A stretch of 64,000 bases of DNA, taken from the NCBI RefSeq assembly GCF_002000055.1, contig NZ_MVBD01000006.1, forward strand, positions 124,001 to 188,000. The letters run 5' to 3'. The DNA is from Marinicella sediminis. GTDB lineage: Bacteria; Pseudomonadota; Gammaproteobacteria; Xanthomonadales; Marinicellaceae. The position numbers were made by a program, and so were the translations under genes. The notes under the pieces are model-generated. The model made no database searches. It was not told where the DNA came from and was given only the letters and a program-made list of their open reading frames with translations. How positions within the stretch are numbered: the first letter of the stretch is position 1; every line of letters starts with the position of its first letter. Positions 46,568 to 64,000 of the stretch are shown piece by piece.

Positions 46568-46753
46568 GTGAGTAATAGCAAAACCTTAGATGTGAAAGTC
46601 AGCGATCAGGATTGGCAAAGAATGGCCAAACATGCGGGCATCCCGACTGAATAGTTAAAAGCCAAAGTGATGGACGCTTTGTCCTCACCTGAAGCTTTTC
46701 TGGCCAAAGCCACACCCACCAGTCCGGTGATCACTGGCCTGACCAATGGTTGA
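46568..46753 (+). pseudogene. Small gene interrupted by an in-frame TAG
   Basis: GTG 46568, preceded by GAGGAAG, opens a 61-codon frame (SNSKTLDVKVSDQDWQRMAK...GIPTE) that stops at TAG 46652-46654. It continues in the same frame as LKAKVMDALSSPEAFLAKAT...TGLTNG to TGA at 46751. A single CAG-to-TAG change would explain it, since Gln fits there. Amber read-through is the other possibility. No family recognised. It may be a recent pseudogene. Confidence 0.55.
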
Positions 46754-46840
46754 AAGCAGACAAGCCAGGAAAAACCAAACGGTCCGGCTCATTGAGTAAA
46801 GCCATTAATCATCAAAAATAACACCCAACAAGTCGGCCAC

Positions 46841-47116
46841 TCAGCCAAACAAAGACGACAGAAAATCCAGTATCCCGCCAACCACTTCCATCACCCCATC
46901 AAATAAGGCCTCAAAAAAGCCCAACACCATGTCCAATGGGCCTTCACTCACTATCACACTGGTTACCCCAAGACCCAGTACACTGGAGGCCATCATCGAA
47001 CCGGCGACCACATTAAAACCGGCAAAACTGACATAAATCAGCGCACCAATGAGCATAAAAGCTGAAATGGCTGAAATGATTCTTAACGGTAATGGTTTGG
47101 CTTTTCTGTTGCTCAT
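46841..47116 (-). CDS. Small membrane protein, unknown function
   Basis: A 91-residue protein from ATG 47116 with AGGAG seven bases upstream. A basic N-terminus (MSNRKAKPLPLR), then two hydrophobic helices (ISAISAFMLIGALIYVSFAG and VVAGSMMASSVLGLGVTSVI) and a C-terminal amphipathic/hydrophobic segment (GFFEALFDGVMEVVGGILDF). The frame extends to 47209, but without similarity or a good start. No family recognised. Confidence 0.6.
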   Translation of the reverse strand: MSNRKAKPLPLRIISAISAFMLIGALIYVSFAGFNVVAGSMMASSVLGLGVTSVIVSEGPLDMVLGFFEALFDGVMEVVGGILDFLSSLFG

Positions 47117-47328
47117 TTTGATAGCTCCTGTCAGGTCTCTTGTTATTTGGCAGCCAACTCCGTACCACTGCCAACCTGAATTGTAGATGACTGCTGGTCT
47201 GACTGTCAAAACTCAAAATCATACATATTTACACATACTTATTGCCAAGCCTTCATTGTCTGCTTTGATGGCATCCAGGGCATTAATATGGTATAAAAAT
47301 TATCAATGACGCTCAACCAATCCATGCC

Positions 47329-48477: not shown

Positions 48478-48509
48478 ATGATCACAGCCGGACCATCGCA
48501 ACCTGTTCT

Positions 48510-48553
48510 GCGGACAGCTTATCATCGGCTGTTCCGCCGACTTGATCAGGCAA
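48510..48553 (-). repeat. Copy 1 of a degenerate 45-base repeat
   Basis: Minus strand TTGCCTGATCAAGTCGGCGG followed by a TGATAAGCTGTCC-type end. It resembles the copies at 48798 and 49829 (shared core CCTRAYCAAGT..GC and TGATSATC.GCTSTCC). Confidence 0.45.
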
Positions 48554-48797
48554 AACAGGTTGTGCACAGACATCGGTTTGGCCGCAGACCAGAAAGTCTT
48601 CTGTGAGTGTCGTCACTCGTTCATAGAGACAAGGCGGTTTAACACAATCAGCAAGCCTTGGTGTAGTATTCGCGGAACCGTGGCCTCTTCTGCATGATCA
48701 CCTGGACGGGATAAATAGAGAAAATTACCTGGCGCAATTGCTGTCCTGCTAACCTGACATACCTGCATCCATACAGGCAAGCGACCGGAAAGATCAT

Positions 48798-48845
48798 AGG
48801 AGAGCTGATGATCAGCTCGACCCGCCGACTTGGTTAGGCAGATCA
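48798..48845 (-). repeat. Copy 2 of the degenerate repeat
   Basis: Minus strand ATGATCTGCCTAACCAAGTC and, further on, TGATCATCAGCTCTCC. It is closest to the plus-strand copy at 49829, so the pair forms an imperfect inverted repeat about 1 kb apart. Confidence 0.6.
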
Positions 48846-49234
48846 TGCAGATATGGCGGTTTGACGAAGTCAAGAAGCCATAATGGAATGATCGATAAGC
48901 CGTGAGCGATAGCGAATCAGAGCGTCGAACGCTTGATCACACGACATGATCGCCGAGGCCTCGGTCTCTGTTCCAGACGAGACCCTAACTCCTCCATCCG
49001 TAGAGTCGGCTTTCACTTTTGTCAGGAACAATAGTGAATGAAGTCCCAAGGTCATTCCTATACGACTGCTGGTTTTTGCAGCGCGAAAAAAAACATGCCT
49101 TAATGACGACTGTGTGAATGCAGTTGTTAGAGCCGAGTCTGGACCGGAGTCTGGATCGGAGGCCGGTAACCCAGGATCATTGCAAAGATGTGTTCATTTA
49201 TTGGCTCAGAATAGCGTGGAATTAAACCTGGTAT

Positions 49235-49642
49235 TTACTTGTTCGGCTTGCCCCATATTGAAATGACAAACGGGAACACCGCAAACAGCAGCAATGAAAC
49301 CAGATAAGCTGCACCTGCTAATGAGTATCTGGATGTCACATATGTAACGATGGACATTTCCCGCAGCGCCAACACCAGTGAAAATTCAACCATCAACAAA
49401 CAACCCAGGGCCATTACGCCCACCCACAGCAGTTGAGCCGGCTTCAGTCCATCACCCGCCAGGCCGACAATGTAACGAGCAACCACAAAACTCGCCAAAA
49501 CCATCAGCGGGAATTCAAGCAATTCCGCCTGATCATCACCCAGTTGCGGCGCCACATAAAGCACCCTGATGGTGCCCAGCACAAAGCCAATTGTGAATAC
49601 GATGGCAAAGTATAAAGCTGAATATTTGAGGATCTTTTTCAT
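49235..49642 (-). CDS. Four-helix membrane protein, unknown function
   Basis: A 135-residue integral membrane protein beginning MKKILKYSALYFAIVFTIGF with four hydrophobic helices. Conserved-looking polar residues lie between helices (GTIRVLYVAPQLGDDQAELL, GLKPAQLLWVG). The shape resembles small uncharacterised membrane proteins of gammaproteobacteria; I cannot name a family with certainty. It stands alone, flanked by non-coding DNA. Confidence 0.75.
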   Translation of the reverse strand: MKKILKYSALYFAIVFTIGFVLGTIRVLYVAPQLGDDQAELLEFPLMVLASFVVARYIVGLAGDGLKPAQLLWVGVMALGCLLMVEFSLVLALREMSIVTYVTSRYSLAGAAYLVSLLLFAVFPFVISIWGKPNK

Positions 49643-49828
49643 AAGCAGAATTAAATAAACCTGTTAAGGTATCCTGGCTGAGTGCATTTCATTCTAAATC
49701 ATTGATTTGTGACATTGAAGCAATTAATGGCTGCTCTGTAACGCTTCACTGTTGAATGTTTGAAAAGGATAACCTGATGCTGACCGATGGTTATTGGGTG
49801 TTATTCATGAAGACTGAGCCATGCTTCT
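49643..49828. other. Non-coding stretch before the AraC regulator, left part
   Basis: No convincing open frame. It leads into the third copy of the degenerate repeat (49829) and a REP-like hairpin (49880), after which the AraC gene's 3' end follows. Confidence 0.5.
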
Positions 49829-49876
49829 ATGATCTGCCTAACCAAGTTTGCAGACAGAATTGATCATCTGCTCTCC
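49829..49876 (+). repeat. Copy 3 of the degenerate repeat
   Basis: ATGATCTGCCTAACCAAGTT and then TGATCATCTGCTCTCC. It is nearly the reverse complement of 48798-48845. Confidence 0.6.
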
Positions 49877-49879
49877 CCG

Positions 49880-49911
49880 GCGCGTTGTCTTCAGTCAACG
49901 TTGTCGCAGGC
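49880..49911 (+). repeat. REP-like hairpin (isolated copy)
   Basis: GCGTTGTCTTCAGTCAACGT followed by TGTCGCAGG. It matches the right half of the REPINs at 58811/62054 (GCGTCGGCTTCTGCCAACGT...GCCGCGAGG) and the hairpin beside the 58.1-kb transposase. The GGAG head is absent, so it is probably degraded. Confidence 0.55.
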
Positions 49912-49959
49912 CGCTGTTGCCAAATATCAGCACACATAAAGTTGGCTTGATTCAGCCGT

Positions 49960-51021
49960 TTAGCCAACCGGCTGTTGCTGGCGAAATTCCCGCGGTGTCA
50001 TTCCGGTAAATTCTTTGAAAGCACGGTTAAAAGGACCCAATGAATTAAAACCACAATCATAAGCAACTGTAGAGATGGTGAGGTGCCGGGTTTCAGGGTT
50101 CTGAAAAATGTGCTTTGCCCGATCTATGCGATGACTGTTCAAAAAATGATTGAAATTTCGAAACTGCAGGTGGTTGGTTATACAACGGGTGATTTTGTAT
50201 TCCTGCTCACCAAGCTGGTCGGCAAAATCAGCCACTTTCAGATTGACTGTGGTCAATAAATCATCATTCCCGATGGCCTTCTGGATGCGCCGGACAAGGC
50301 CTTCAACTGTATCCTTATCGGTCTCATGGGACAAGGCTTGTTGCAGTGGGTTTCTGAACCTGTACCAGACCACAACCCGACTGCCTGCCACGGTCAAGAT
50401 GGCACAAGTGGTCAGCAGGGCTGATTTCCAGGTGGCCGCCACAGAACCGTCACCAGCACCTGATAACCATAGGATGGCAATACCAACCACCAGGCTGAAC
50501 CCAGCGACAAACATCACCCTGAAGTGGCGCTCTGCGGAACAACGCAACCTGTGATAGCCCTGCAACACTTCCTTATAAATAAACACGATGGCCGTCACAC
50601 AAATCATGGAAGCGGCATTACCAAACACCCGCCCAGCTTCTCCGGCAATGCCGGCAGGCCCCACAGGAATCATCAATGCCGCCAAGGCTTCAAACACAAT
50701 AGCCACAGGGACCACAGCGAACATCCGCGGCCGCCAGTCCTTACGTCGGCGAAACAGCATACGACTGAGCAGCCAGAACCAGGCACAACCACCCGATCCG
50801 GCCACCACCAACACATAATAACTGAATCCGGAAGACATGTTGGTCATCCTGATCGCGGATGAACACAGGATGGACAAGGCAAAACTCCACCACACCAGGA
50901 TCATTGGTTCAATCCGTTTTAAACGACCCAATAAATTGGCAGCGTACACCAACAAGGTTGGTGCTTTGTTATCCGGTGCCGGTTGAGTGGTGATGCGTCG
51001 CAATAGTTGATCGGTCCACAT
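49960..51021 (-). CDS. AraC family transcriptional regulator with membrane domain
   Basis: A 353-residue protein. Residues 30-215 hold six or seven hydrophobic helices, and the C-terminal 100 residues form an AraC-type double HTH (NHFLNSHRIDRAKHIFQNPE, then ISTVAYDCGFNSLGPFNRAF, and TGMTPREFRQQ). A membrane-bound AraC regulator reads a membrane or extracellular signal. It is divergent from the DUF2306-type gene at 51183, a plausible target, but no operator is apparent in the 161-base gap. Confidence 0.85.
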   Translation of the reverse strand: MWTDQLLRRITTQPAPDNKAPTLLVYAANLLGRLKRIEPMILVWWSFALSILCSSAIRMTNMSSGFSYYVLVVAGSGGCAWFWLLSRMLFRRRKDWRPRMFAVVPVAIVFEALAALMIPVGPAGIAGEAGRVFGNAASMICVTAIVFIYKEVLQGYHRLRCSAERHFRVMFVAGFSLVVGIAILWLSGAGDGSVAATWKSALLTTCAILTVAGSRVVVWYRFRNPLQQALSHETDKDTVEGLVRRIQKAIGNDDLLTTVNLKVADFADQLGEQEYKITRCITNHLQFRNFNHFLNSHRIDRAKHIFQNPETRHLTISTVAYDCGFNSLGPFNRAFKEFTGMTPREFRQQQPVG

Positions 51022-51182
51022 GATTTATTCCCATACACTTAGTTAAGGTCACTAAAACTGGTCGATTTCCAAAATGACTAGACAGGTGTCATCAAATCCC
51101 AATACTGAGCTGAAAGGTCCTCAAGACCAGACAACCGAATGACCATGATAACACAACACCTGCACAACACTGAGGAACAAGC

Positions 51183-52016
51183 ATGACAATACAACAGACT
51201 TTAACTGCCGGTAGGCGCTCCCCTGTTTTTGCCACAAAAGTACTGAATGGTTCAGCCAAACTGTGGTTTTCAATCATTCTGGCCGGGCAGGCCATGTTCG
51301 CATTTTACATCGTTGCTTTTTATTATGCTGCCACCGCTGCCAATGAAATTGAACGATTCAACCAGGTAATGCCTGCTGGTTTTATCGCCGGTGAATTTTG
51401 GGGCAACATCGCCGTCATTGGCCACGTGCTGTTTGCCGCCATCATCACGGTCGGTGGCTTACTACAATTGATACCAGCCATGCGCAACAAATTTCCGGCC
51501 GTGCATCGCTGGAATGGCAGGCTGTATGTGGTCATTGCCATTGTCATGAGTCTGAGTGGCGCATTCATGATCATCACCCGGCATGACAATATCATCGGCG
51601 ACTGGTTTGGGCATCTGACCCTGTTGATCAATGGCGCACTCATTTTGATCTGTGCCACCATGGCCTTTAAATGGGCCCGGCAGCGGCAGTTTAGCCGACA
51701 CCGGGTATGGGCACTGCGGCTGTTTGTTGCGGTCAGTGGGGTTTGGTTGTTTCGGGTTGGATTGATGGCCTGGCTGACCGTGCATGGCAAACCGGTTGGG
51801 TTTGATCCCGTCAGTTTCACTGGTCCCTTTTTGAAGGTACTTTACACCCTGGTATACATCATGCCGTTGTTGTTCCTTGAGGTTTATCTGCGGGCTCAGT
51901 CCAGTCAGTCTGTGCGTCAAAAGCTGATCACTGCCACAGGGGTTTTTCTGCTCAACATCATACTCGCCGTTGGGGTTTTTGCCGCCATCATGGGCATGTG
52001 GCTGCCCAGGATATGA
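51183..52016 (+). CDS. DUF2306-like multi-pass membrane protein
   Basis: A 277-residue protein with about seven hydrophobic helices. GLLQLIPAMRNKFPAVHRWN followed by GRLYVVIAIVMSLSGAFMI, and RQFSRHRVWALRLFVAVSGV, are typical of the DUF2306 family; the family's His residues (HRWNGR, SRHRVWALR) suggest a haem- or metal-binding role, unproven. A ribosome-binding site GAGGAA lies before ATG 51183. Likely controlled by the divergent AraC protein. Confidence 0.75.
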   Translation: MTIQQTLTAGRRSPVFATKVLNGSAKLWFSIILAGQAMFAFYIVAFYYAATAANEIERFNQVMPAGFIAGEFWGNIAVIGHVLFAAIITVGGLLQLIPAMRNKFPAVHRWNGRLYVVIAIVMSLSGAFMIITRHDNIIGDWFGHLTLLINGALILICATMAFKWARQRQFSRHRVWALRLFVAVSGVWLFRVGLMAWLTVHGKPVGFDPVSFTGPFLKVLYTLVYIMPLLFLEVYLRAQSSQSVRQKLITATGVFLLNIILAVGVFAAIMGMWLPRI

Positions 52017-52129
52017 GCAACCACTGTAGAGCGCAGCTGATCAATTGAACTGACTGACCGGTTCTGATCTACAGGTCTTGAACAACAACCCTCCTGGTTG
52101 CTGTAAAGAAAACCAGATGATGTATTTGC

Positions 52130-52163
52130 AACCAGCAGGATGGAGCAATCCATCCTGCTGGTT
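52130..52163. terminator. Perfect 14-bp hairpin downstream of the DUF2306-like gene
   Basis: AACCAGCAGGATGG and CCATCCTGCTGGTT pair around AGCAAT. There is no T run directly after, so Rho-independent termination is uncertain. The rest of 52017-52417 holds no gene that I can see. Confidence 0.55.
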
Positions 52164-52417
52164 ATGCCGGTTTTACTGATTCATCCCTCACCTATCAAGA
52201 CATTCATCTGTGTTTCAGGCATTTGAAGATGAGATGAAATCACAGTGACATTTTGAATCAACACAGTAACTTTCGCTGTGGATGCAAAAAGACATAATGA
52301 TACGAAGAGTTATACCACTTTATTCATAAACTACCATATAAGATCTGCTCAATGGTTCCTGGCAAAGTGATCGTATAGCGGACTCTTTGTCCAAAAACAG
52401 GTGCTTGTTCTGTTGTT

Positions 52418-53248
52418 TTATGTTTTGTGGATAATCATCTCAACCGGAGCAATCAAACCACTGGCTATATTATCAACCATATTCTTGATTTTTGGGGCTG
52501 TGCTTGCTTGCATCAGAATATGAAGACCCAATGGGGGTGGACCCCCATTTTCCTTGGTTTTTGCGCGTAACTGTTTAAAGAACTCCATTGAAAAATCACG
52601 GCGATTGTTCTCTCTGAAGATTTCAAATCCGGCATCGCTAATGGCTTGTTTGTATTGAGCGGGTGTAGACAATTTACTGGTAGCACCTTCAGTCGCCCAT
52701 GGAACGGGGTAAGTCAATTCACCATCAATTTGTCGCATAATGTCATAAACGCCGAAGGTTGTCCCGGGTTTTAGCACCCGAAAAATTTCGGCAAAAAGCG
52801 ACGCTTTGTCTTCAATATTCATGCCCACGTGGAGCATATAACCTGCGTCGAATGAACCATCCTGAAAAGGCATCGTCAATGCACTGCCTTGTTCAAGCGT
52901 TACATATTTATCAAGACCTAACCAACCACACAGTACTTTTCCGGTCTCAATATACTCAGGTGACAGGTCGATTCCGGTGACCTGGTTTTTATATTGAGAT
53001 GCCAGATATCTGGCCGCACCACCTAAACCACAACCCACATCCAATACGGAGTCTTGTTCAGAAAAATGAAGCTGATCAAACAAATGATCTGTTGCCAGGC
53101 GTCCTCCGATATGGAACTCATCGACTGGCGCAAGATCTGCAATGGTCACATCCCCAATTGTTTTACCGAGAACCGGGAGTGCTGCTTCTATGGCCTCAAG
53201 CAAACCGCCATGTAAATAGTGGTCTGATACAGATTTATCATACGACAT
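52418..53248 (-). CDS. Class I SAM-dependent methyltransferase
   Basis: A 276-residue methyltransferase with SAM loop SVLDVGCGLGGAARYLAS, the post-I residue segment VTGIDLSPEYIETG and motif GYMLHVGMNIEDKASLF. The layout resembles small-molecule methyltransferases (sarcosine/dimethylglycine or Erg6-like types) more than rRNA enzymes. ATG 53248 has AGGAGG eight bases upstream and is clearly the start; the frame itself extends 33 bases further. Substrate unknown. It stands alone in the accessory region. Confidence 0.86.
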   Translation of the reverse strand: MSYDKSVSDHYLHGGLLEAIEAALPVLGKTIGDVTIADLAPVDEFHIGGRLATDHLFDQLHFSEQDSVLDVGCGLGGAARYLASQYKNQVTGIDLSPEYIETGKVLCGWLGLDKYVTLEQGSALTMPFQDGSFDAGYMLHVGMNIEDKASLFAEIFRVLKPGTTFGVYDIMRQIDGELTYPVPWATEGATSKLSTPAQYKQAISDAGFEIFRENNRRDFSMEFFKQLRAKTKENGGPPPLGLHILMQASTAPKIKNMVDNIASGLIAPVEMIIHKT

Positions 53249-53281
53249 AAAATTAACCTCCTGGTTTCTGATTCTGAACAA

Positions 53282-53668
53282 AACAGCTGCGTGTTTTCGG
53301 TTTTTTAGCGCTCCGTGTATGGATGCCTTCTCACAGAATACCAGACCCCAATACGCGTACGTTGTTTCTCATTGTAAGTCATTGATTTCTTTAAATGAAA
53401 AAAAGCCATGCTCATCAGGTGTCTGTTACGGACAAAAGATCGATCGCAAGGTGGGCAGGCCCTTAAGACTGCTTTGAATGCAGTTGTGGTGATTTGACGC
53501 AGTCAATATGCCTCATCATAATGATTGATCAGCCATTTGCTTATCAAAGAAAAAAACCTGACTAACCACCAGGATAACGACTGTATGGATAAAAGAAGTA
53601 AGCGCCGAGACTGGATCGGAGGCCGGTGCCCAAGATCACTCCTGGTGACATCTTCCTGGATCCTGTGT
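53282..53668. other. Non-coding stretch with one repeat unit
   Basis: No supported gene. It contains the unit at 53601-53627 shared with 49.1 kb, and an AT-rich centre near 53500-53580. Confidence 0.45.
53601..53627 (+). repeat. Dispersed repeat, second copy (first at 49131-49167)
   Basis: AGCGCCGAGACTGGATCGGA followed by GGCCGGT. At 49.13-49.17 kb the same core CTGGATCGGAGGCCGGT follows AGCCGAGTCTGG, with part of the unit doubled (GGACCGGAGTCTGGATCGG). Origin unknown. Confidence 0.55.
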
Positions 53669-53833
53669 TCAAGACATGGCGAGGTTGACCATTTTGGCAG
53701 ACACAATGAACATCACCCCAACCAAAATACCGATCAACGTGGCTTTGATCACGGCTCGTTTTTTGGAGGTTTTATCATGGTCTTTATTTGCTTTTTGTTC
53801 CTGGGTTTCAGTGCTTTCGTTTGTCATATTCAT
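53669..53833 (-). CDS. Candidate small single-helix membrane protein
   Basis: From ATG 53833: a charged N-terminus (MNMTNESTETQEQKANKD, KTSKKRAVIK) followed by one transmembrane helix (ATLIGILVGVMFIVSAKMVN), 54 residues. The polar-then-hydrophobic layout is sensible, but the ribosome-binding site is poor, so this is a candidate only. The frame extends upstream to a TTG at 53869. Confidence 0.4.
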   Translation of the reverse strand: MNMTNESTETQEQKANKDHDKTSKKRAVIKATLIGILVGVMFIVSAKMVNLAMS

Positions 53834-54049
53834 GGTTTTTGATGTTGTTTGTGTTGTTTGTGGTCTCAATTCTGTGATGGCAAAAACGTCAGCACCTACA
53901 CCTGACCTGGTTGCTTGTGCAATTCACTCTGATTCATGTATAACATAACGCTTGAACTGCTGAGAAAAACATCTGGCGATCAGGGTTTTTTCGCGGGAAA
54001 CATGTGGTTTGTCCAATTGATTTCATCCGGTGATGTCTTCTTGATACCA

Positions 54050-54622
54050 TCAGCTTATTTTATACTGTTCGGGATCTCCCATCCACATGCGCAAAGAATT
54101 CCCGCGCGCGTCTGCTGTTTCAGGATCAGCCCCCAAACCGAGCAATGTGCGGACCGCTTGTTCCCGGTAAAACATGGCCGCGATGATCAGTGCCGTGCAA
54201 CCTCCTGAGTCCCTGGCATCAATATCAGCTCCATTGTCTGCCAATGTCACGATGTTATCAGTCTTTTCAAAGTAAGCAGCCTCCATCAATGGCGTTTTAC
54301 CATCATGGTCTTTGCTGTTGATGTCCGCACCATTTCTTATCAACAGACTCAAAATGTCCTGACCACATTCACCTGCCGCATCAAAAATCGCTGTGGTACC
54401 ATCTTGCGGATCAACTTCGTTGATGTCAGCACCATATGCCAGCAACAGCTTGACACACGCTGTGTCACCAACTAACAGGGTTCGCCTGAGCGCTGACCAG
54501 CCATTTGCTTCGGGAATGTTGGATGGCTTTAACCCCGCCTTTAACAGGCGCTTAAGTTCCTCGTAATCGCATTTTTCCGAAGCAATCAGCAACTCGATCT
54601 GGGTGTTTTTGGCTTTCGTCAT
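54050..54622 (-). CDS. Ankyrin-repeat protein
   Basis: A 190-residue protein with about five ankyrin repeats (for example GWSALRRTLLVGDTACVKLL, DGTTAIFDAAGECGQDILSL, DGKTPLMEAAYFEKTDNIVT, GGCTALIIAAMFYREQAVRT), each with the TPL/TAL(I/M)xAA and GADIN hairpin. It binds proteins; the partner is unknown. ATG 54622 is preferred to the frame's first Met at 54685, since the extension lacks repeat similarity. It is one of a co-oriented series of small unrelated genes (54.0-56.3 kb). Confidence 0.85.
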   Translation of the reverse strand: MTKAKNTQIELLIASEKCDYEELKRLLKAGLKPSNIPEANGWSALRRTLLVGDTACVKLLLAYGADINEVDPQDGTTAIFDAAGECGQDILSLLIRNGADINSKDHDGKTPLMEAAYFEKTDNIVTLADNGADIDARDSGGCTALIIAAMFYREQAVRTLLGLGADPETADARGNSLRMWMGDPEQYKIS

Positions 54623-54721
54623 GAGTCCGTTTTTCTGGCTAACACTGGTTTTGCCGTACCAGACATGGCTGCAAAACGGCAACAACGGCTGGCGCTTTGT
54701 ACGCCTGGTCAGCAGGCCTTG

Positions 54722-55123
54722 TCAGCATATCACAGCCGCGGAATCGGTCAATTGATTGTATTCAATGACCAGGTCATTCCCGCTACTGAATGTGAATTGT
54801 ACTTTAATCGAATCATTTTCTTTCGTGTAATTGATACCAAGCAGTGAAGCCCCAACGTAATCAGCATGTTCCGAACACCGCACAGAGACCAGGCAACTTT
54901 CGAAGGAATGATTATCTGCTTGCTGAGGTTCCTGGCCTTGCCTCCAGATAACTGAATCACCCTCAAAACAGAGCGAATACCAAATCGCATTAAACTTCAT
55001 GTTGGTGACATTTGCGGATTCAATAACCACAAAGCTTTCCTGATATTGCGTAAACACCAGGTCTTCGCAAACCTTATTCAGGATATCCGGTTCTGTTCCA
55101 TTGATTTGGATCTGTTTCATCAT
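54722..55123 (-). CDS. Hypothetical protein
   Basis: A 133-residue soluble protein, beta-rich (MKQIQINGTEPDILNKVCED, then FVVIESANVTNMKFNAIWYS, and IKVQFTFSSGNDLVIEYNQL), with no signal peptide. A good ribosome-binding site GAGGAA precedes two adjacent ATG codons. I do not recognise the family. Cysteines are present but not in a metal-like pattern. It sits between the ankyrin gene and another small hypothetical on the same strand. Confidence 0.65.
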   Translation of the reverse strand: MMKQIQINGTEPDILNKVCEDLVFTQYQESFVVIESANVTNMKFNAIWYSLCFEGDSVIWRQGQEPQQADNHSFESCLVSVRCSEHADYVGASLLGINYTKENDSIKVQFTFSSGNDLVIEYNQLTDSAAVIC

Positions 55124-55208
55124 TTTTCCTCATGTCTGCAAAACTCCTGTTCACAGGCTGCGGTGAAGGCACGAAGGGCCCAGGTCATGGAAACCCTGGC
55201 CATGCGAT

Positions 55209-55511
55209 TTAACCTCCAGGCAACTCATCCCTGGCATGGATTAACAGACTGGCAATTTTTGTATTGTGTTCTTTTCCCGCACTCCTGCTCAACCCCATAT
55301 TGACACTGGCTATGGTTGTCAGGTGTTTTAACATTTTATATGTGTCACAGCCTTCAAGCAGCAGCTTGACTGTTGATGGAACATAGCCAGCATACTCGTC
55401 ATCCCATTCAGCTTGTTCATTGTAAACACCAATGGGGTCCCAGTCTTTCCACAGTATGCTGGCAACCCTTGTAGAGAGTTCTTGCTCCACTTTGTTCAGT
55501 TTTTTATTCAT
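55209..55511 (-). CDS. Small protein resembling DUF1871-type proteins
   Basis: A 100-residue protein whose WKDWDPIGVYNEQAEWDDEY and AGYVPSTVKLLLEGCDTYKM segments match the general pattern (WDP.GV......DEY..Y....) of small DUF1871-like proteins, function unknown. Start ATG 55511. Same strand and close to its neighbours. Confidence 0.6.
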   Translation of the reverse strand: MNKKLNKVEQELSTRVASILWKDWDPIGVYNEQAEWDDEYAGYVPSTVKLLLEGCDTYKMLKHLTTIASVNMGLSRSAGKEHNTKIASLLIHARDELPGG

Positions 55512-55578
55512 GATCAGTGGCGCCTAGCGATAAATATAAACGGTTTGTTGACCCGTTCGCTTGATTGACTGGTTAGCT
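55512..55578 (-). other. Hairpin-forming spacer with attC-like ends (uncertain)
   Basis: After the pseudogene stop the minus strand reads AGCTAACCAGTCAATCAAGC, then AACGG ... CCGTT, and ends CGCTAGGCGCC. The ends resemble the RYYYAAC/GTTRRRY boxes of integron attC sites with one mismatch each. The internal symmetry is weak, and no integrase is in the window. Confidence 0.25.
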
Positions 55579-55935
55579 TTATTTCCAAAATTCATGTGCT
55601 TCTGTTATTTTTTCTTTGATCAATGCCGGAGCCCGTTCATTGATGACTTTCTTGTATTCCGGGTCATGTTGCCCCAGTGCCAGATCATTCAATGAATGAG
55701 ACTTCTATGGCATTTTATAAATCAGGATCAGCCTTTTTCAGGCTTTCTTCAATAAACCTAAATGCCTATTCAAATTCCATTTCCAACCTTTTGATAACTC
55801 TACTTCCACCCAACGCCTGAAGGCCCCTATTTCACAGTGAAGCATACCACGCTCATATTCATTAATCTCTGAGCAGGCGTCTGGAAATTGGGTTTTCAGC
55901 TGTATGAGGAAATCGTTCCGGTCCTTAATTTAATC
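55579..55935 (-). pseudogene. Broken gene resembling DUF7674-type small proteins
   Basis: The minus strand contains successive pieces of one protein in different frames: IKDRNDFLIQLKTQFPDACS, EINEYERGMLHCEIGAFRRW, then a frameshift, FRFIEESLKKADPDL, TAA, NAIEVSFIE, frameshift, NDLALGQHDPEYKKVINERA and PALIKEKITEAHEFWK before the final TAA. The pattern (EYE.G.LH.E.G.F, F.FIEE.L..ADPDL.NAI..SF.E.L) resembles a family of small bacterial proteins of unknown function, DUF7674 as I recall it. At least two frameshifts and two nonsense codons make it inactive. Confidence 0.6.
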
Positions 55936-56019
55936 TGCCAGCTTTGCCGAAAAATTACTGTTGCGCAATGCAAACACCGAAGTGAAGTTTTGTAAAAGAT
56001 GTCTTACCTGACATGCTTG

Positions 56020-56331
56020 TTATACGCTGCCTTGTGTTTCAACCACCAAAATTCGAGAAGCGACTTTGGGGTGAGCTACATGTTCAGTACCTACAGATGC
56101 GAAGAATATATCGCCAACCTCCAGTATTGTTGATTGTTCTGAGCCATGTTCCCGATAGAACATTTCAACAACGCCGTCCAATACAACAAACACCTCTTCG
56201 CCCGTATTTATATGCCACTTATAAGGCTTGTCCGTCCAATGAAGCCGGGTGGTGATGCCATTCATATTCGCTATATCCAGCGCTTCCCATGGCTTCTGGG
56301 CGACAAACTCCTTTGCTCTGATGATTTTCAT
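56020..56331 (-). CDS. Cupin-domain protein
   Basis: A 103-residue single-domain cupin. KWHINTGEEVFVVLDGVVEM holds the metal-binding H..(x)4-5..E part of motif 1 (one His replaced relative to HxH), and GDIFFASVGTEHVAHP holds the second His motif. ATG 56331 is preceded by GAGGAATAA. Small cupins can be isomerases, dioxygenases or sensors; the function is not determined. Confidence 0.78.
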   Translation of the reverse strand: MKIIRAKEFVAQKPWEALDIANMNGITTRLHWTDKPYKWHINTGEEVFVVLDGVVEMFYREHGSEQSTILEVGDIFFASVGTEHVAHPKVASRILVVETQGSV

Positions 56332-56366
56332 TTTATTCCTCAAATATTGATGATTTAGGTATACCA

Positions 56367-56598
56367 GGAAAGGCTATCTCTTAGAAAGATCATACCGCTG
56401 ATTCAGACATTTACCACAATTAAATCCACCTGAATTTTCCCAGACCATTATTTTACATAACTTGCAGCGGTAACTTGCAGAGTAACTTGCAGTGGTAACT
56501 TGCAGGACAGGCACTCCCTAAGAAATATCATACGGTCAGTTCATACAATTGCCACAGCCAATTCCCTCTGAATTATCCAAAATCATGGTTTTAATCGG
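56367..56598. repeat. Two imperfect direct repeats of about 95 bases before the transposase
   Basis: Segments 56367-56455 and 56502-56590 align base for base over most of their length: AGGAAAGGCT.../AGGACAGGCA..., ATCATACCG/ATCATACGG, CACAATTAAATCC/CACAGCCAATTCC, CTGAATT, ending in TTTTA. The second copy runs into the transposase ribosome-binding site. They are separated by the short GTAACTTGCAG tandem. Confidence 0.7.
56459..56505. repeat. Short tandem repeat, core AACTTGCAG x4
   Basis: AACTTGCAG occurs at 56459, 56472, 56484 and 56497, spaced 12-13 bases, mostly within a larger unit GTAACTTGCAG. Confidence 0.8.
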
Positions 56599-56606
56599 AG
56601 AAAACA

Positions 56607-57542
56607 ATGGGATTAGCAAGGAAATACCAGATTTGCTATAAGGAAACGCCATATTACCATGTGGTCAGTCGATGCGTGCGCAGGGCCTTTCTGTGCGGTG
56701 ATGACCATGCCTCTGGGAGATCATTTGAAAATAGGCGTAAATGGGTCGTTGAACGCATGAAATATCTGGCCAAACTGTTCAGTTTAGATATCTGTGCTTA
56801 TGCTGTGATGGGCAATCATTTTCACATCGTTCTGAAAGTCAATAGCAACAAGGATTGGACAGATAAACGAGTGCTCATAGCTTGGGGAGGTTTGTTTGAT
56901 TTACCAGGACCCTGTGAACGCTTTATACAAGGTGAACATTTAAGCAAACCTCAACTGGATTTTGTCACTCAAAAGACTCAAATTTATCTGAAACGACTGA
57001 GGTCCATCAGCTGGTTTATGAAGTGTCTTAATGAATACATTGCCAGACGAGCCAACATTGAAGATGGGTGCACTGGCCACTTCTGGGAATCACGCTTCAA
57101 GAGTCAAGCCTTGCTCGATGAGCGCGCTTTACTTACATGCATGGCATACGTCGATCTCAACCCCATTCGCGCCGCATTGGCAAAAACCCCAGAACAATCT
57201 GATTACACTTCAATACAGGAACGTATCAAAGACAAGAACACCAGGCTGATTGGGTTTGGCTATCATGATAATGATCTGCCTTTTTCACTATCAGGATACT
57301 TGGGGCTATTGGACTATTCTGGCCGATCAATTCTTGAAAACAAACGTGGATACATTCCAGAAAACCTGCCTCCTATCCTTGACCGACTAAACCTCGATCC
57401 AGACGCCTGGCTGGACGAACTCAAGGGCTTCAAATCAGTCGGTTTTTCAGCTGTCGGCACGGTTGATCAAATCAAGAGCTTTTGCAAAAAAGTAGGCAAG
57501 AAATTCGCGGTTGGTTATCGCCTAAAACCAGCCCTGGAGTAG
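56607..57542 (+). CDS. Y1 (IS200-like/REP-type) transposase
   Basis: A 311-residue single-strand transposase. It has YYHVVSRCVRRAFLCGDD near the start, the HUH motif in MGNHFHIVLKV, WESRFKSQALLDERALLTCM, and YVDLNPIRAALAKTPE, all typical of the TnpA/RAYT-like family found as single genes in gammaproteobacteria. The Tyr nucleophile should lie in the region LLTCMAYVDLNPI. It is flanked by repeats on both sides (imperfect direct repeats upstream, a 167-base tandem downstream). Confidence 0.9.
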   Translation: MGLARKYQICYKETPYYHVVSRCVRRAFLCGDDHASGRSFENRRKWVVERMKYLAKLFSLDICAYAVMGNHFHIVLKVNSNKDWTDKRVLIAWGGLFDLPGPCERFIQGEHLSKPQLDFVTQKTQIYLKRLRSISWFMKCLNEYIARRANIEDGCTGHFWESRFKSQALLDERALLTCMAYVDLNPIRAALAKTPEQSDYTSIQERIKDKNTRLIGFGYHDNDLPFSLSGYLGLLDYSGRSILENKRGYIPENLPPILDRLNLDPDAWLDELKGFKSVGFSAVGTVDQIKSFCKKVGKKFAVGYRLKPALE

Positions 57543-57580
57543 CTAATCATACATCATAGCTTGTCAGCAGATTCTGTCTG

Positions 57581-57914
57581 CCACCGCCCAACTCATTTTC
57601 AATCAGGCCATTTTGCTCGAATTTCTAGAAACTGCGATTCCCGGACATTAAAATGCCTCTAACTCTTTTCAATTTCTTATTTTTCCACAACAAAACCATC
57701 TTAATCACTTCAGCTGGTCTCTATGAAAAGTGCATGTCCCGATATTCCCACCGCCCAACTCATTTTCAATCAGGCCATTTTGCTCGAGTTTCTAGAAACT
57801 GCGATTCCCGGACATTAAATCGCCTCTAACTCTTTTCAATTTCTTATTTTTCCACAACAAAACCATCTTAATCACTTCAGCTGGTCTCTATGAAAAGTGC
57901 ATGTCCCGATATTC
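57581..57914. repeat. Perfectly periodic 167-bp tandem duplication
   Basis: Copy 1 is 57581-57747 and copy 2 is 57748-57914, both beginning CCACCGCCCAACTCATTTTC and ending CCCGATATTC. They differ at only three or so positions (GAATTTC/GAGTTTC, AAAATG/AAATCG). Each contains the palindrome TTTCTAGAAA. The repeat lies 38 bases after the transposase stop. Confidence 0.95.
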
Positions 57915-57968
57915 TTTTATCTCAATATTCTCAGAGCCATTGATTTCTGACTTTGAAGGAAATTACCC

Positions 57969-58094
57969 ATGCTCTTTTGGCAGGATTTGTACAGACAGAA
58001 TGCCAAGGCTGCGTTAACTTACATGGGTCAGGATATAGGTATTCACTTTGAAAAAAAGTCATTCATCAATAAACAAAAATACTTATTGATATGA
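57969..58094 (+). CDS. Candidate short open reading frame (41 codons)
   Basis: ATG 57969, with GAAGGAAATTACCC upstream, opens a 41-codon frame (MLFWQDLYRQNAKAALTYMG, then QDIGIHFEKKSFINKQKYLL) to TGA at 58092. The composition is protein-like but no similarity is known to me. It may be a remnant of a transposon passenger. Confidence 0.3.
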   Translation: MLFWQDLYRQNAKAALTYMGQDIGIHFEKKSFINKQKYLLI

Positions 58095-58108
58095 AAAAGA
58101 TACAATCA

Positions 58109-58131
58109 TTGGAGCGTTGACTTCAGTCAAC
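58109..58131 (+). repeat. REP element, upstream of RAYT
   Basis: TTGGAGCG followed by the hairpin GTTGAC-TTCA-GTCAAC. It is inverted with respect to the copy at 58700, with coupled changes in the stem. Confidence 0.85.
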
Positions 58132-58146
58132 ATTAAGCAGAACAGC

Positions 58147-58659
58147 GTGAGAAAACAGCTTCATCATTTCAGTCAGGAACACACCCATCAATTCGTCACT
58201 TTTCGGACGCAAGCCAGTGTCGATGAATTTGTGCTTCTGTTACAAGAATCAAATCTGGATGAAAGCAACAAACAACTCAGCATCGATCAGCACCTGGATC
58301 ACTCTGAATTGGGCTGTTTGTTGAATGATGACATCATTGATCTGACCAGGCTTTACTGTCAAAACCTGGATCCCGGTCACTATCAACTGATTGCACTGTC
58401 CGTGATGCCCAACCACGTTCATATGCTGTTTCAACAACAGCTGGAATTAAGCACAATCATGCACAAAGTGAAGGGTGGATTGACCCGGCTGATTAATAAG
58501 CGGTTGCAACGTAACGGGTCTTTGTGGGAAAGGGGCTACTTTGATAAAGCCATCCGCAGTGAAGAACACTTCAAGACGACTTATCGGTACATCAGAAACA
58601 ACGCCCCGGCAGCAGGGCTGATCGATGCTGATAGACGGTTTTTCGGAATCTATGAATGA
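58147..58659 (+). CDS. RAYT (REP-associated tyrosine transposase)
   Basis: A 170-residue Y1-type transposase that acts on REP sequences in single-stranded form. The HUH motif is ALSVMPNHVHMLFQQ, and the C-terminal helix LWERGYFDKAIRSEEHFKTT and YRYIRNNAPAAGL hold the typical RAYT ending with the Tyr. The frame reaches a TTG at 58117 that lies inside the REP hairpin. I prefer GTG 58147, beginning the conserved QLHHFSQEHTHQFVTFRT stretch. The gene is bracketed by inverted REP hairpins, the diagnostic arrangement. Confidence 0.88.
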   Translation: MRKQLHHFSQEHTHQFVTFRTQASVDEFVLLLQESNLDESNKQLSIDQHLDHSELGCLLNDDIIDLTRLYCQNLDPGHYQLIALSVMPNHVHMLFQQQLELSTIMHKVKGGLTRLINKRLQRNGSLWERGYFDKAIRSEEHFKTTYRYIRNNAPAAGLIDADRRFFGIYE

Positions 58660-58699
58660 TCATCAACCACGGCTGGTGCTCAGCAGTGGAAACAGCAAA

Positions 58700-58722
58700 G
58701 TCGACTGAAGTCGACGCTCCAA
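58700..58722 (-). repeat. REP element, downstream of RAYT
   Basis: Read on the minus strand: TTGGAGCG then GTCGAC-TTCA-GTCGAC. Compared with 58109, the T to C and A to G changes in the stem are compensatory, so the hairpin is kept. Confidence 0.85.
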
Positions 58723-58810
58723 AGTTATCCATGTTCTGTTTTAAGGCTCTGATCAGCTGTTCATTGTCATCTTAAAAACCTAATTGACGGGATATCTGAG
58801 GTGACAAACC

Positions 58811-58866
58811 AACGCCGGACTGGCGTTGACGCTCCGATATTGGAGCGTCGGCTTCTGCCAACGTTG
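58811..58866. repeat. REPIN (paired REP hairpins), left copy
   Basis: Hairpin AACGCC/GGCGTT, then the head-to-head palindrome GACGCTCC/GGAGCGTC, then a second hairpin-like segment GTCGGCTTCTGCCAACG. The GGAGCGTC head is shared with the REPs around the RAYT gene. Confidence 0.8.
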
Positions 58867-58925
58867 CCGCGAGGCACATGTGATTGAGGGATCAATCGTG
58901 ATTACATCGCACAACCAGCGTTCGA

Positions 58926-59132
58926 TCAACCCTCGGCCTTGAGTTTCAGCCGATAAGCGTGGAGCAGGGGTTCGGTGTAGCCCGACGGTTGTGCTTTGCC
59001 TTTGAACACCAAATCCAGAGCGGCCTGGTAGGCGGTGTTGTTTGCCAGGTCATCTGCCATGTTGCGGTAGGCCGCATCACCGGTGTTTTGTTCATCGACC
59101 ACTTTAGCCTTGCGGGCGAAGGTGTCTTTGAC
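58926..59132 (-). pseudogene. Detached 3' fragment of malate synthase G gene
   Basis: Minus-strand reading gives the last 68 or so residues of GlcB ([20 protein letters not shown] and ending [13 protein letters not shown], stop at 58926-58928). It is nearly identical to the real gene's end at 62169, with Met replaced by Lys once. It has no start and no upstream part. Confidence 0.92.
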
Positions 59133-59270
59133 CCGTTGCCTGGTTTAAGCTCCCAGTAATGCAGCGAATTTGTAGTGGACCAGGTGTTTTGATTAAACGG
59201 ATATTTCCGTATGTCTGGGATTTTGCTAAGATTAAGCCGATTTTCACACCTCTTAAAGGAACTGAAGACC

Positions 59271-61922
59271 ATGAATGGATCAAAGCGAAATATTTCCCGT
59301 ATATGTTCATTACTGATGTTGTTGCTGTTAAGTCAGCAAGCTCTGTCATTGAAGTTCAACCAAAATGAATTGTTGATTCTTAAAGGCTCTGATCCTGAAC
59401 TGGCTGATGATGAAGGGTATTTATTTTTGTCGGTAGAAAGCAACCAACATTTCACCACCGTGATTTTGGATCATGTTGATTCCGGAAAGCGCATGAGGTT
59501 TTCTGACATGCAACAGGGTGAAAACCATGCCTTGGTTAAGCTCAAAGCAGGAAAGTACTATTGGAAATCTTTACGGGGATACATCATGTGGGGTTTAAGC
59601 TGGATACGGTTCGACAAAGATGAGCATGTTTTTGAGGTCAAACCTGGGGTTATTAATTACCCGGGGACATGGTTAGCCGAAGTGAAATTTTCCAGCTCAC
59701 TAAGCGGTTCTTTTTCTTTAAAATCGACCAACAAAGCAACCTTGGAATGGCCTTATTTTAAGCAACACTACCAGCAATACACCGGGCAAACGCCTCTGGT
59801 ATTTTCTGGGCATGCAAATGATCCTTATTTTCAATACCTTCCTGGCATCATAGCACAACAAGACTTTGAATCAATTACAGCTTTAGACTACCGTGAAATA
59901 GACAAACAACAATCTCCGATAAAGGTCTTTGACATCATGCAAGGGGTCGATCAGGCCAAGAACATGTTTCCCAAGTTAGCAGACTACCTGGATACCAACC
60001 GCCAAGTTTCTGGAGAAATCAATCCTCAGGGCGACTGGATACTGCTCAGTTCATTACAAGATAAAATGACGCTAATTGAGGTAGTCAACATCAATACCTT
60101 CAAGTCATATGTAGTGTTCAAAGAATCATTACCAGACCGTGCCAGGATAAGCAGCCTGAGGTGGATCGACAATGATTCTTTTATTTATGATCTGGATTAT
60201 GAAAAGTACTCTTTCAGTCATGTGATGCACCTGAGCACCAACCAAAACGCAGAATTGGTTGGTGCTGAAGTGTTGGAAATTCCAATTGCTGGCAAATTGC
60301 TGGACCCATTGATAGACCAGGAAAACAAGATGTTTTTTGCTAATTTCAGGTTGAGCAGTGTTAACAACAATGACATCAATGGTTTATATTTTGTCGACAC
60401 CAGCTCCACAAAAAGCATCAAAAAATCTTTCAAAAAAACGTACAAAAAAACCAGAAAGTTCAACACCGTAATTGACTGGTTGACTGACCAAACCGGCTAT
60501 GTCAGATCAGCCATTGAAGTTGAATATGATAAAAAAAATGAACAGGTGTCGTTCCACCATTGGTTTTTACCAGATAAGACCACTGATGATTGGGTCAGAA
60601 TACGGACCAGCCACAGCGATGATGATGTACCCTTACCTGTCAAGTTATCCGCCGATGAAACATTTTTTTATGCCTTCACCGATGCCTTTGGAGACAAAGT
60701 ATCGGTGCATAAGTATTCAACCAAAGATTACTCACACATCGGGCCTTTCATTGAAGACCCGTATGTGGACATAGAGTCGTTGATTGAAGACCCCAGCAGC
60801 CGGGAGATCATTGGATATACACACCTTGAGAACGGTTGGTCTCAGCGTAAATTTTTACAGGAAAACAATGATCTAATCCGTCAGTTGCGCAAACAAAACC
60901 CTGATTTACAAATGTTTGTCCGTCAGCACATCAAAGCAAAAGAATTGATGCTGATCTATGCCTACACTCAGTATTCGAAAGGTGCCTGGTACCTGTATCA
61001 AAAAAACACCCAAACAGTGAGTAAGCTGTTGGATGAAAATCCTGTTTATGAAAATTTACCCAAGGGAGATAATCATGCCATTTCTGTACAGGTTGAAGAT
61101 GGCATAGAGGTTGAAGGATTTTTAGTGGTGCCGTCCATTAAAGGAGAACACAAACCACCGTTGGTGGTGATTCCTCATGGTGGTCCCATCGGTGTTCGTG
61201 ATACCGCTGCCAATGATGAAACACAGCACTTCCTGGCTTCAAAAGGCATTGCATCTTTGAAAGTTAATTACCGTGGTTCGAGCGGCTATGGTAAGGAGTT
61301 CATTGAACTCGGTAAACAACAGTGGGGTGAAAAAATCGAGTCAGACATCCATGCTGTGGTACTTGAAGCCATTGAACAGTATGCGTTGGACAGCAACAAA
61401 GTCTGCGCAATGGGCAGTAGTTATGGTGGTTATTCGGCAGTCATGTTAACTATTTTATATCCCGATGTGTATCTGTGCGCCATATCTTTGCACGGTGTGA
61501 TGGACTTGCCATTGTTGTTTGGCAATCAGTCACTGAACAAGAATGATAAATTTTTTGAAGAGTTGGCAAAAATTGTGGGAGATCCACGCACTGAAATGGA
61601 AAAGCTGATGAAAAAATCTCCTTTTTATCTGGCCGACAAAATTTCCCGCCCGATCAAACTGTTTCAGGGACTGAAAGACAACCGGGTGACTGTTGAACAT
61701 GCATTGCGTATGCAACAGATGTTTACTTTATTTGACATGGAGGCTGATTTAACAGTTTTGATGAATGAGGGTCATTCTTTAAAATACCTGAACTCTAACA
61801 TTCATTTCATCACCGAAACAATGAAGTTTTTGGACAAACATCTGGATTTGCCGATTGATATACCAGCAGAAAAAGAAGCAGCGGAAAAAAACCAGTCTGT
61901 GATGGATCTAATCCTCAAATGA
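59271..61922 (+). CDS. Secreted S9 family prolyl oligopeptidase-type peptidase
   Basis: An 883-residue exported serine peptidase. ATG 59271 is preceded by AAAGGAACTGAAGACC and gives a signal peptide (MNGSKRNISRICSLLMLLLLSQQALS). The N-terminal part is a domain of its own, then a beta-propeller region, then an alpha/beta-hydrolase catalytic domain: VVIPHGGPIGVRD, SLKVNYRGSSGYGKEFIELG, nucleophile in AMGSSYGGYSAVM, Asp in FQGLKDNRVTVEHAL and His in MNEGHSLKYLN. It cleaves peptides or acyl-aminoacyl substrates outside the cytoplasm. It lies between 349-bp direct repeats, suggesting recent insertion. Confidence 0.9.
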   Translation: MNGSKRNISRICSLLMLLLLSQQALSLKFNQNELLILKGSDPELADDEGYLFLSVESNQHFTTVILDHVDSGKRMRFSDMQQGENHALVKLKAGKYYWKSLRGYIMWGLSWIRFDKDEHVFEVKPGVINYPGTWLAEVKFSSSLSGSFSLKSTNKATLEWPYFKQHYQQYTGQTPLVFSGHANDPYFQYLPGIIAQQDFESITALDYREIDKQQSPIKVFDIMQGVDQAKNMFPKLADYLDTNRQVSGEINPQGDWILLSSLQDKMTLIEVVNINTFKSYVVFKESLPDRARISSLRWIDNDSFIYDLDYEKYSFSHVMHLSTNQNAELVGAEVLEIPIAGKLLDPLIDQENKMFFANFRLSSVNNNDINGLYFVDTSSTKSIKKSFKKTYKKTRKFNTVIDWLTDQTGYVRSAIEVEYDKKNEQVSFHHWFLPDKTTDDWVRIRTSHSDDDVPLPVKLSADETFFYAFTDAFGDKVSVHKYSTKDYSHIGPFIEDPYVDIESLIEDPSSREIIGYTHLENGWSQRKFLQENNDLIRQLRKQNPDLQMFVRQHIKAKELMLIYAYTQYSKGAWYLYQKNTQTVSKLLDENPVYENLPKGDNHAISVQVEDGIEVEGFLVVPSIKGEHKPPLVVIPHGGPIGVRDTAANDETQHFLASKGIASLKVNYRGSSGYGKEFIELGKQQWGEKIESDIHAVVLEAIEQYALDSNKVCAMGSSYGGYSAVMLTILYPDVYLCAISLHGVMDLPLLFGNQSLNKNDKFFEELAKIVGDPRTEMEKLMKKSPFYLADKISRPIKLFQGLKDNRVTVEHALRMQQMFTLFDMEADLTVLMNEGHSLKYLNSNIHFITETMKFLDKHLDLPIDIPAEKEAAEKNQSVMDLILK

Positions 61923-62026
61923 ACAAGGTACAGGTTGGTTGAAAACAAATGAAATCACTTTATGTCATTAGGCAGGTTTAGTCGCAAGTTTAACCATTGC
62001 AGAAAAGCTGAAGTCGGTACTCAGTG

Positions 62027-62375
62027 TTGACGGGTTATCTGAGGTGACAAACCAACGCCGGACTGGCGTTGACGCTCCGATATTGGAGCGTCGGCTTCTG
62101 CCAACGTTGCCGCGAGGCACATGTGATTGAGGGATCAATCGTGATTACATCGCACAACCAGCGTTCGATCAACCCTCGGCCTTGAGTTTCAGCCGATAAG
62201 CGTGGAGCAGGGGTTCGGTGTAGCCCGACGGTTGTGCTTTGCCTTTGAACACCAAATCCAGAGCGGCCTGGTAGGCGGTGTTGTTTGCCAGGTCATCGGC
62301 CATGTTGCGGTAGGCCGCATCACCGGTGTTTTGTTCATCGACCACTTTAGCCATGCGGGCGAAGGTGTCTTTGAC
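62027..62375. repeat. Right copy of 349-bp direct repeat (native glcB 3' end)
   Basis: Partner of 58784-59132. Here it is continuous with the intact malate synthase gene, so this is the original copy. Confidence 0.95.
62054..62109. repeat. REPIN downstream of glcB
   Basis: Same arrangement as 58811-58866. On the minus strand it follows the glcB stop by about 60 bases and may serve as its transcript end. Confidence 0.8.
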
Positions 62376-64000
62376 TTGTTGTTCGCTGCAGATGCCGTGG
62401 ATCAACCAGTTACAGATGTGCTGGCTGGAGATGCGCAGGGTGGCGCGGTCTTCCATCAGACCGGTGTTGTTGATGTCGGGCACTTTGGAACAGCCCACGC
62501 CCTGATCAATCCAGCGCACCACATAACCGAGGATGCCCTGGGCATTGTTGTCCAGTTCGTGCTGAACCTGCTCTGCGGTCAACGCTTCGGGATCGGTGCA
62601 CAAAGGGATGGTCAGAATGTCATTGATGTCGGCTCTTGGCCGGTCTTTGAGCTTATCCTGCACATCGAACACGTCCACCTGATGATAGTGCATGGCGTGC
62701 AGGGTGGCGCCATTGGGTGAGGGCACCCAGGCACAGTTAGCGCCGGCTTCGGGGTGTTCGGTTTTGATCTTCATCATCTGCGCCATTTCGTCAGGCATGG
62801 CCCACATGCCTTTACCGATCTGCGCTTTACCGGTGAAGCCACATTCCAGCCCAATATCAACGTTCCAGTTTTCATAGGCCTTGATCCATGGCATGGCTTT
62901 GATCTCGGCTTTGGGGGCCATCGGACCGAGCAGCATGCTGGTATGGATTTCATCACCGGTGCGATCGAGGAATCCGGTGTTGATGAACACAATGCGGTCT
63001 TTCACTGCACGGATGCATTCTTTGAGGTTGACCGTGGTGCGGCGCTCTTCATCCATCACGCCGATTTTCACGGTGTGGCGCGGCAAGCCCAGGGCATCTT
63101 CCACCGCATTGAATAAGGTGTTGGCAAAAGCCGCTTCTTCAGGGCCGTGCATTTTCGGTTTAACGATATACACTGAGCCAGTGCGGCTGTTGCGCAAGGG
63201 GCCCAGGCCACGCAGATCATGCATGGCGATCAACACTGAGATCATCGCATCCATGATACCTTCAGGCACTTCATCGCCCTCAGCAGTGAGGATCGCCGGG
63301 TTAGTCATCAGGTGACCAACATTGCGACAAAACAGCAGGCTGCGGCCATGCAAGGTCAGTTCAGAACCATCCAGAGCGATCATCACCCGGTCCTGAGCAG
63401 GTACCCGGGTCACAGGTTTGCCGCCTTTGTCAAAGGTGTCGCTCAAATCACCCCTCATCAGGCCCAGCCAATTGCGGTAAACCCCGACCTTGTCTTCACC
63501 ATCAACCGCTGCCACTGAATCTTCAAAATCCTGAATGGTGGTGATCGCCGCTTCCATGGTAAGGTCTTTAACGCCTGCTTTGTCAGTCTTTCCAATCGGC
63601 GAGGTGGCATCAATTTCGATGATTACCCTCAGGCCGTGGTGATTCAACAACAGGGCTGTGGGCTGTGACGCATCACCTTGATAAGCCTGACATTGTGAGG
63701 GGTCTTGCAAAACAGTGATGACACCATTGGCCAACACGGCTTTGAAGGACTGGTTGATCACCTGATAGTCAGTCACTTCATGATGTGAACCGTCCAGCAG
63801 GGGAAAGTGGCGATCCAGAAAATCCCGTCCATAAGCAATCACCCGTTCACCCCGCACCGGGTTGTAACCAGTGGTTTGTTCGGCACCATCGGTCTCCGGG
63901 ATCACATCAGTGCCGTATAAGGCATCATACAAACTGCCCCAGCGGGCATTGGTGGCGTTCAGGGCAAAACGGGCATTGGAGGTGGGCACCACCAACTGTG
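62169..64000 (-). CDS. glcB: Malate synthase G, C-terminal part
   Basis: The gene runs off the right edge. The visible 610 codons correspond to E. coli GlcB from about residue 115 on ([25 protein letters not shown]). Segments include [87 protein letters not shown], and [19 protein letters not shown] near the end. It condenses glyoxylate and acetyl-CoA to malate (glyoxylate bypass). The TTG at 63995 is internal, not the start. A REPIN follows. Confidence 0.96.

Follow-up and report, generated by a model that had tools for sequence, protein, structure and literature searches.

Background

Insertion with long target duplication, reported in Helicobacter pylori (Nobusato et al. 2000), is described in the parts of PMC1643837, PMC3154945, and PMC2749054 that cite it as placing a gene at a site that is empty in relatives and flanking it with a long direct duplication, often in connection with restriction-modification genes. 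PMC2884548 cites homology-facilitated illegitimate recombination in natural transformation, which combines a homologous anchor with an illegitimate joint and can add a segment beside the anchor, and the relevant part of PMC2869330 describes transposed non-transposon genes of Arabidopsis with flanking direct repeats, the sequence of which is often present at the target site in sister species. Here we analyze a stretch of 64,000 nucleotides from Marinicella sediminis (the window; contig NZ_MVBD01000006.1, positions 124,001 to 188,000), in which a gene for a peptidase of the S9 (prolyl oligopeptidase) family stands beside glcB, the gene for malate synthase G, between 2 nearly identical 349-bp direct repeats of the glcB 3' end; our tentative reading is that this gene was relocated from the neighborhood of dtd and miaA. 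Integrative elements also enter the 3' ends of genes, leaving attL and attR sites, and they resemble the present locus in that the gene end is intact on one side and a truncated second copy stands at the far end. Their att cores are usually far shorter than a 349-bp repeat, and the usual outcome of homology-facilitated illegitimate recombination is that recipient DNA is replaced and the anchor is not duplicated.

A peptidase gene between direct repeats of the glcB end

The left repeat copy (58784-59132) and the right repeat copy (62027-62375), neither assigned a strand, start 3243 bp apart and are 99% identical, with 3 mismatches (58792, 59055, and 59110), and beyond the repeat 7 of the next 13 bases differ between them. 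Each copy contains the terminal 207 bases of glcB, whose stop lies at 62169, approximately 142 bases of downstream DNA, and 1 palindrome of the repetitive extragenic palindromic (REP) type. The right copy runs into an intact glcB on the minus strand (62169-64000 in the window, continuing to 64340 in window numbering; PF01274, PF20658, PF20659) encoding 723 amino acids (aa), whereas the left copy ends after 207 coding bases, leaving an orphan glcB fragment (58926-59132, minus strand) that was delimited by alignment with the right copy and 8 relatives. The sole long open reading frame (ORF) between the repeats (59271-61922, plus strand) encodes the S9 peptidase of 883 aa. An earlier note made from the sequence alone had described this arrangement, with repeats holding the glcB 3' end and a paired REP palindrome (REPIN) around a lone peptidase gene, the right copy continuous with the real glcB and the left copy cut off, and that description was confirmed.

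The genome is a 3.99-Mb draft of 44 contigs, with the window and both repeats inside a 274-kb contig (C41), and a whole-genome search with the repeat matched the 2 copies and a 27-base REP piece on contig C3. We screened for local repeats of at least 80 bp and at least 80% identity in stretches covering C41 (274,071 bases) and in a set of 19 from contig C23, which total 379,501 bases including overlaps and represent approximately 367.5 kb of its 371 kb. Elsewhere in these approximately 640 kb of the genome, the screen showed no comparable local repeat. The other repeats of C41 were 2 tandem arrays and a 260-270 bp family at 3 distant sites, and the C23 stretches had none. Local repeats of this sort are rare in the screened stretches, and the pair beside glcB is excluded as a chance product.

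Seventeen relatives of the same genus, none of the same species, were examined; 9 gave a glcB DNA match, and the other 8 gave none. The peptidase was found in 0 of the 9 fetched glcB surroundings, which upholds the insertion beside glcB that the earlier note had proposed. There was 1 glcB match per relative (in relative G017, 2 pieces of 1 gene; at most 16 candidates were scored per genome), and the repeat fragment occupied a single place per relative in the fetched loci. An insert that is absent from the orthologous site and a long repeat that is single at the empty site are features shared with insertion with long target duplication. The insert holds no restriction-modification gene, only the S9 peptidase; the association with such genes is frequent in the H. 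pylori system without strictly defining it, whereas the gene found here has orthologs elsewhere in the genus. A relocated ordinary gene between direct repeats would also recall the Arabidopsis cases, which belong to a eukaryote and for which several routes are proposed in that paper. Unlike in 3'-end integrative elements, the cargo is 1 gene with chromosomal orthologs, and no integrase was found in or next to the insert, where the peptidase alone lies between the repeats and the small ORFs were partly scanned.

The 2 repeat copies differ at 3 of 349 positions, compared with 19-31% for the same fragment against the 9 relatives (69-81% DNA identity). Because this difference is far below the divergence from the relatives, the duplication appears to be recent, or the copies have been kept alike by gene conversion; the recent event that the earlier note had read from the 99% identity is thus supported by the comparison, with recent homogenization fitting equally well. 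The left copy alone lacks an otherwise invariant ATG codon (lost at 59110), present in the right copy and in 8 of 8 aligned relatives, so the left copy is, on this alignment, the decaying duplicate.

Origin of the peptidase gene

The window protein belongs to the family Peptidase_S9 (PF00326; E 1e-35, 123.6 bits against a cut-off of 22.6). Its ORF opens at 59211, and the likely start is the ATG at 59271, judging from the starts of the ortholog alignments and a signal-peptide-like N terminus. Orthologs were identified in relatives G004 (67% aa identity) and G013 (62%), and a protein scan of named genomes returned 1 relative, Marinicella meishanensis NBU2979 (67% identity, best segment). In a tree of 10 S9 proteins, the window protein grouped with the G004 and G013 orthologs with a support of 1.000, and the branching inside this trio had a support of 0.466.

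In both G004 and G013, the ortholog has as its divergently oriented neighbor the same 249-aa gene, after which come a winged-helix regulator and, at a greater distance, dtd and miaA. The source genome (G000) retains those neighbors at C23:253.5-265.5 kb without the peptidase, and only distant S9 homologs were found in the 19 stretches of C23. On C23, the gap between the 249-aa gene and its next neighbor, an FG-GAP gene, is a mere 176 bp; the corresponding place in G004 is occupied by the peptidase and a 612-aa nuclease-like gene. Since the neighborhood of the orthologs survives here without it, the peptidase probably belongs to this lineage and was relocated.

G000 and G004 share 67% identity in the peptidase and 56-89% in 9 other genes. 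The peptidase gene has a GC content of 41.3%; among the 149 ORFs of 250 aa or more in the C41 stretches, it is one of 2 with so low a value. Its orthologs are likewise AT-rich relative to their hosts (46.1% in G004 and 39.1% in G013). GC at third codon positions (GC3) is lower by 10.7 than in the G004 ortholog, against a mean of approximately -9.9 for 13 other ortholog pairs (computed by hand, with 1 pair at 32% identity left out), and differs from the G013 ortholog by +4.4, a value toward the bottom of the range spanned by the other pairs (3.5 to 15.5). Divergence and composition, as judged from these comparisons, fit a gene of this lineage. The earlier note had suggested this comparison of GC and codon use, and we rejected a foreign origin from low GC alone because the orthologs carry the same offset, with horizontal gain from a near donor kept as a rival.

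The region upstream of the peptidase (59133-59270, plus strand) includes a promoter-like block (59218-59233) in common with the G013 ortholog, identical at 14 of 16 bases and located 37 and 36 bases before the ATG, respectively (1 of 300 shuffles). The block was not significant for G000 and G004 (119 of 300 shuffles) or for G004 and G013 (50 of 300). The gene probably moved together with its promoter.

Weighing relocation against other explanations

Because the source genome does carry an ortholog, relocation is the simplest reading, with gain from a close donor after an earlier loss also possible. We infer that a segment of approximately 59133-62026, promoter included, would have left the dtd/miaA neighborhood of this lineage and joined the 3' side of glcB in a single insertion event, in which 2 target ends overlapping by 349 bp would have led to duplication of 349 bp of target. 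One copy would have remained with glcB, which would never have been broken, and the other would be the orphan fragment left of the peptidase. The stretch of 104 bp that separates the peptidase stop from the right repeat (61923-62026, without strand) may be either part of the moved segment or native DNA downstream of glcB. Such a single insertion is the simplest account of the layout and resembles insertion with long target duplication; as a whole, the account is plausible but falls somewhat short of probable. Homologous recombination between the repeats could still remove the peptidase.

Several observations weigh against relocation in one step. No terminal repeats, integrase, or insertion sequence mark the segment. 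The 249-aa gene and the regulator are likewise present without the peptidase in relatives G003, G005, G010, and G015, whose genomes show generic S9 matches only, so an empty dtd neighborhood is common in relatives and need not be a donor scar; a homolog in G016 (47%) lies in a different gene context. The former place draws on 2 relatives and on a tree pairing G000 with G004, as found with rpoB, glcB, and aceA (0.964, G013 apart) and with glcB and aceA (0.854). This pairing is contradicted by an uneven set of 10 genes with much missing data, which joined G000 and G014 (0.982) with G004 next (0.912); rpoB alone did not pair G000 and G004. If the 58783/58784 junction were native, the DNA to its left should resemble the DNA downstream of glcB in relatives. 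In the fullest test, however, neither flank was significant (left, 110-158 of 1000 shuffles; right, 67-115 of 1000), the right scoring slightly better. In relatives, glcB, which forms the right outer flank, runs on without a break; the left outer flank is beyond resolution at this divergence. A first test gave 188 and 57 of 300 shuffles for the left flank and 3 of 300 for the right, the latter at a position that is not collinear with the repeat, and a test with a short target gave 60 of 2000 for the left and 31 of 2000 for the right. Left-flank matches in the test with 9 relatives, namely in G003 (0 of 400), G007 (3), and G010 (2), were set aside, because 4 of 597 unrelated 400-base pieces reached scores of at least 33 as well and the 3 matches involved differing parts that seemed by eye to be coding. 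A looser anchored test against G004 gave 6-100 of 100 shuffles for the left flank and 0-3 of 100 for the right, and this lean toward the right flank, if real, speaks against a one-step model and favors duplication followed by loss.

Under that alternative, the peptidase was at glcB earlier, a tandem duplication of the peptidase and the glcB 3' end followed, and the left peptidase was then lost with the left glcB fragment kept. Beyond the slightly better match of the right flank to G004, which the fuller test did not make significant, it can draw on tandem duplications without junction homology and small duplications without flanking repeats, as documented in the parts of PMC4432121 and PMC3784515 that concern them, but it requires at least 3 events, the last an illegitimate deletion sparing one repeat, and we consider it unlikely, though deserving of attention. 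The same layout would result if a circle with the peptidase and a fragment of the glcB 3' end had integrated by a single crossover at the glcB end, the difference being which flank is native. By reasoning, such a circle gives the order of flank, repeat, peptidase, repeat, and glcB in a single step, and the earlier note had put it forward. Against it, the circle must already carry the glcB fragment, and the peptidase loci fetched from G004 and G013 contain no copy of the repeat. Nor did carriage by plasmid or phage reveal anything close, plasmids having been searched for peptidase and repeat and phages for the repeat only: the repeat was without a match in 50,697 phage records, among 72,556 plasmid records only 3 matched it, partially and within the portion that codes for glcB, and no place in plasmids reached at least 60% identity to the peptidase. 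With no integrase family among the scanned ORFs (some small ORFs lay outside the scan), we regard integration of a circle as rather improbable. The presence of the peptidase without repeat copies in sibling genomes, which the earlier note would have counted against an insertion, does occur in G004 and G013, but the locus differs, so the insertion is not refuted.

Horizontal gain beside glcB from a Marinicella-like donor, the dtd locus having either been emptied earlier or never contained the gene, agrees with the dtd neighborhoods of the 4 other relatives that lack the peptidase, with its low GC, and with the low-end GC3 difference from G013. The orthologs are also AT-rich relative to their hosts, however, GC3 relative to G004 is typical, and the divergence from G004 and G013 matches that of resident genes, which would make the donor about as distant as a sister species; this is a doubtful explanation, yet a shade less so than the circle. 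A draft of 44 contigs leaves room for an assembly artefact, in which repeat copies or contig ends were misjoined, and 349 bp is a considerable repeat length for short reads, but the peptidase and glcB lie intact inside the 274-kb contig, and the copies are not 1 sequence placed twice because they have 3 differences, 1 of them in an otherwise invariant codon, making an artefact very improbable. Equally hard to credit is an active role for the REP-associated tyrosine transposase (RAYT) and the REPIN at the glcB 3' end, whereby single-strand cuts at REP hairpins would have opened the target and a long overlap would have been duplicated on capture of the peptidase.

REP elements and neighboring variable regions

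The RAYT-like Y1 transposase gene (58117-58659, plus strand; PF01797, E 7.6e-15) lies left of the repeat, flanked by inverted REP arms at 58108-58134 and 58697-58722, and has an ortholog in G004. Its match to NF047646 (E 2.3e-18, 66.5 bits) is under the 80-bit cut-off and still the best RAYT match of the genome. Each repeat copy has 1 REPIN-like palindrome of 2 inverted REP arms, read from the sequence without strand (58811-58864, and approximately 62054-62107 in the right copy), and the REP core pattern had 22 genome sites at 0-1 mismatch, compared with 2 for a reversed control. G004 also has a REP pair downstream of glcB (7833 and 7869 of the fetched locus), which makes it probable that the palindrome already belonged to the glcB end when the event took place. 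The REP pattern had no match at C23:250-270 kb, the dtd locus, and we rejected REP-to-REP recombination as the carrier on this ground. We treated the RAYT and the REPIN as bystanders. Nothing links the RAYT to the move.

The order in G004 is a GGDEF gene, a RAYT (69% aa identity to the window RAYT), 2 other genes, and glcB, which fits a pre-insertion state with the RAYT on this side of glcB. Where both GGDEF gene and glcB were fetched, the interval between them measured approximately 24 bp (G010), 1.6 kb (G017), 3.8 kb (G004), and 13.7 kb (source genome). The scanned ORFs nearby comprised GGDEF, AraC-type, DUF2306, methyltransferase, ankyrin, and cupin proteins, 2 of Y1 type (1 under the cut-off), and 2 without a family; of the variable interval, 48478-58783 holds the AraC-type, DUF2306, methyltransferase, ankyrin, and cupin genes and 2 transposase-like ORFs. 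The first Y1-type transposase-like ORF (56607-57542) encodes a 311-aa protein with a weak RAYT match and, with 5 further weak matches on other contigs, may represent a small multi-copy family. It is followed in the same interval by 2 head-to-tail copies of a 167-bp unit, 98% identical (57581-57914). A dispersed repeat of 260-270 bp at 48795-49064, 95-98% identical at 3 C41 sites, has a short palindrome at its start by eye. An Rfam search of 44000-64000 gave no match.

The dtd neighborhood looks like a second variable spot, as the neighbors of the 249-aa gene and winged-helix regulator differ in G003, G005, G015, and G010. Elsewhere in the source genome, an ORF at C34:29107-31608 matches at the DNA level the 612-aa nuclease-like neighbor of the G004 peptidase, a gene absent from the C23 locus; it is a candidate for a second relocated gene or a paralog, and no long repeat flanks it.

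Implications

No report of this locus was found among the Marinicella genome literature matches listed, which is weak evidence of absence. If the RAYT did take part, it would be an agent of whole-gene relocation, beyond the dispersal of REPINs. Bacterial gene order is in constant change, but moves of single genes without transposon marks are seldom caught with the likely former neighborhood, the empty target in relatives, and a fresh scar all open to comparison, and the case carries the caution that low GC together with flanking repeats need not mean foreign DNA.

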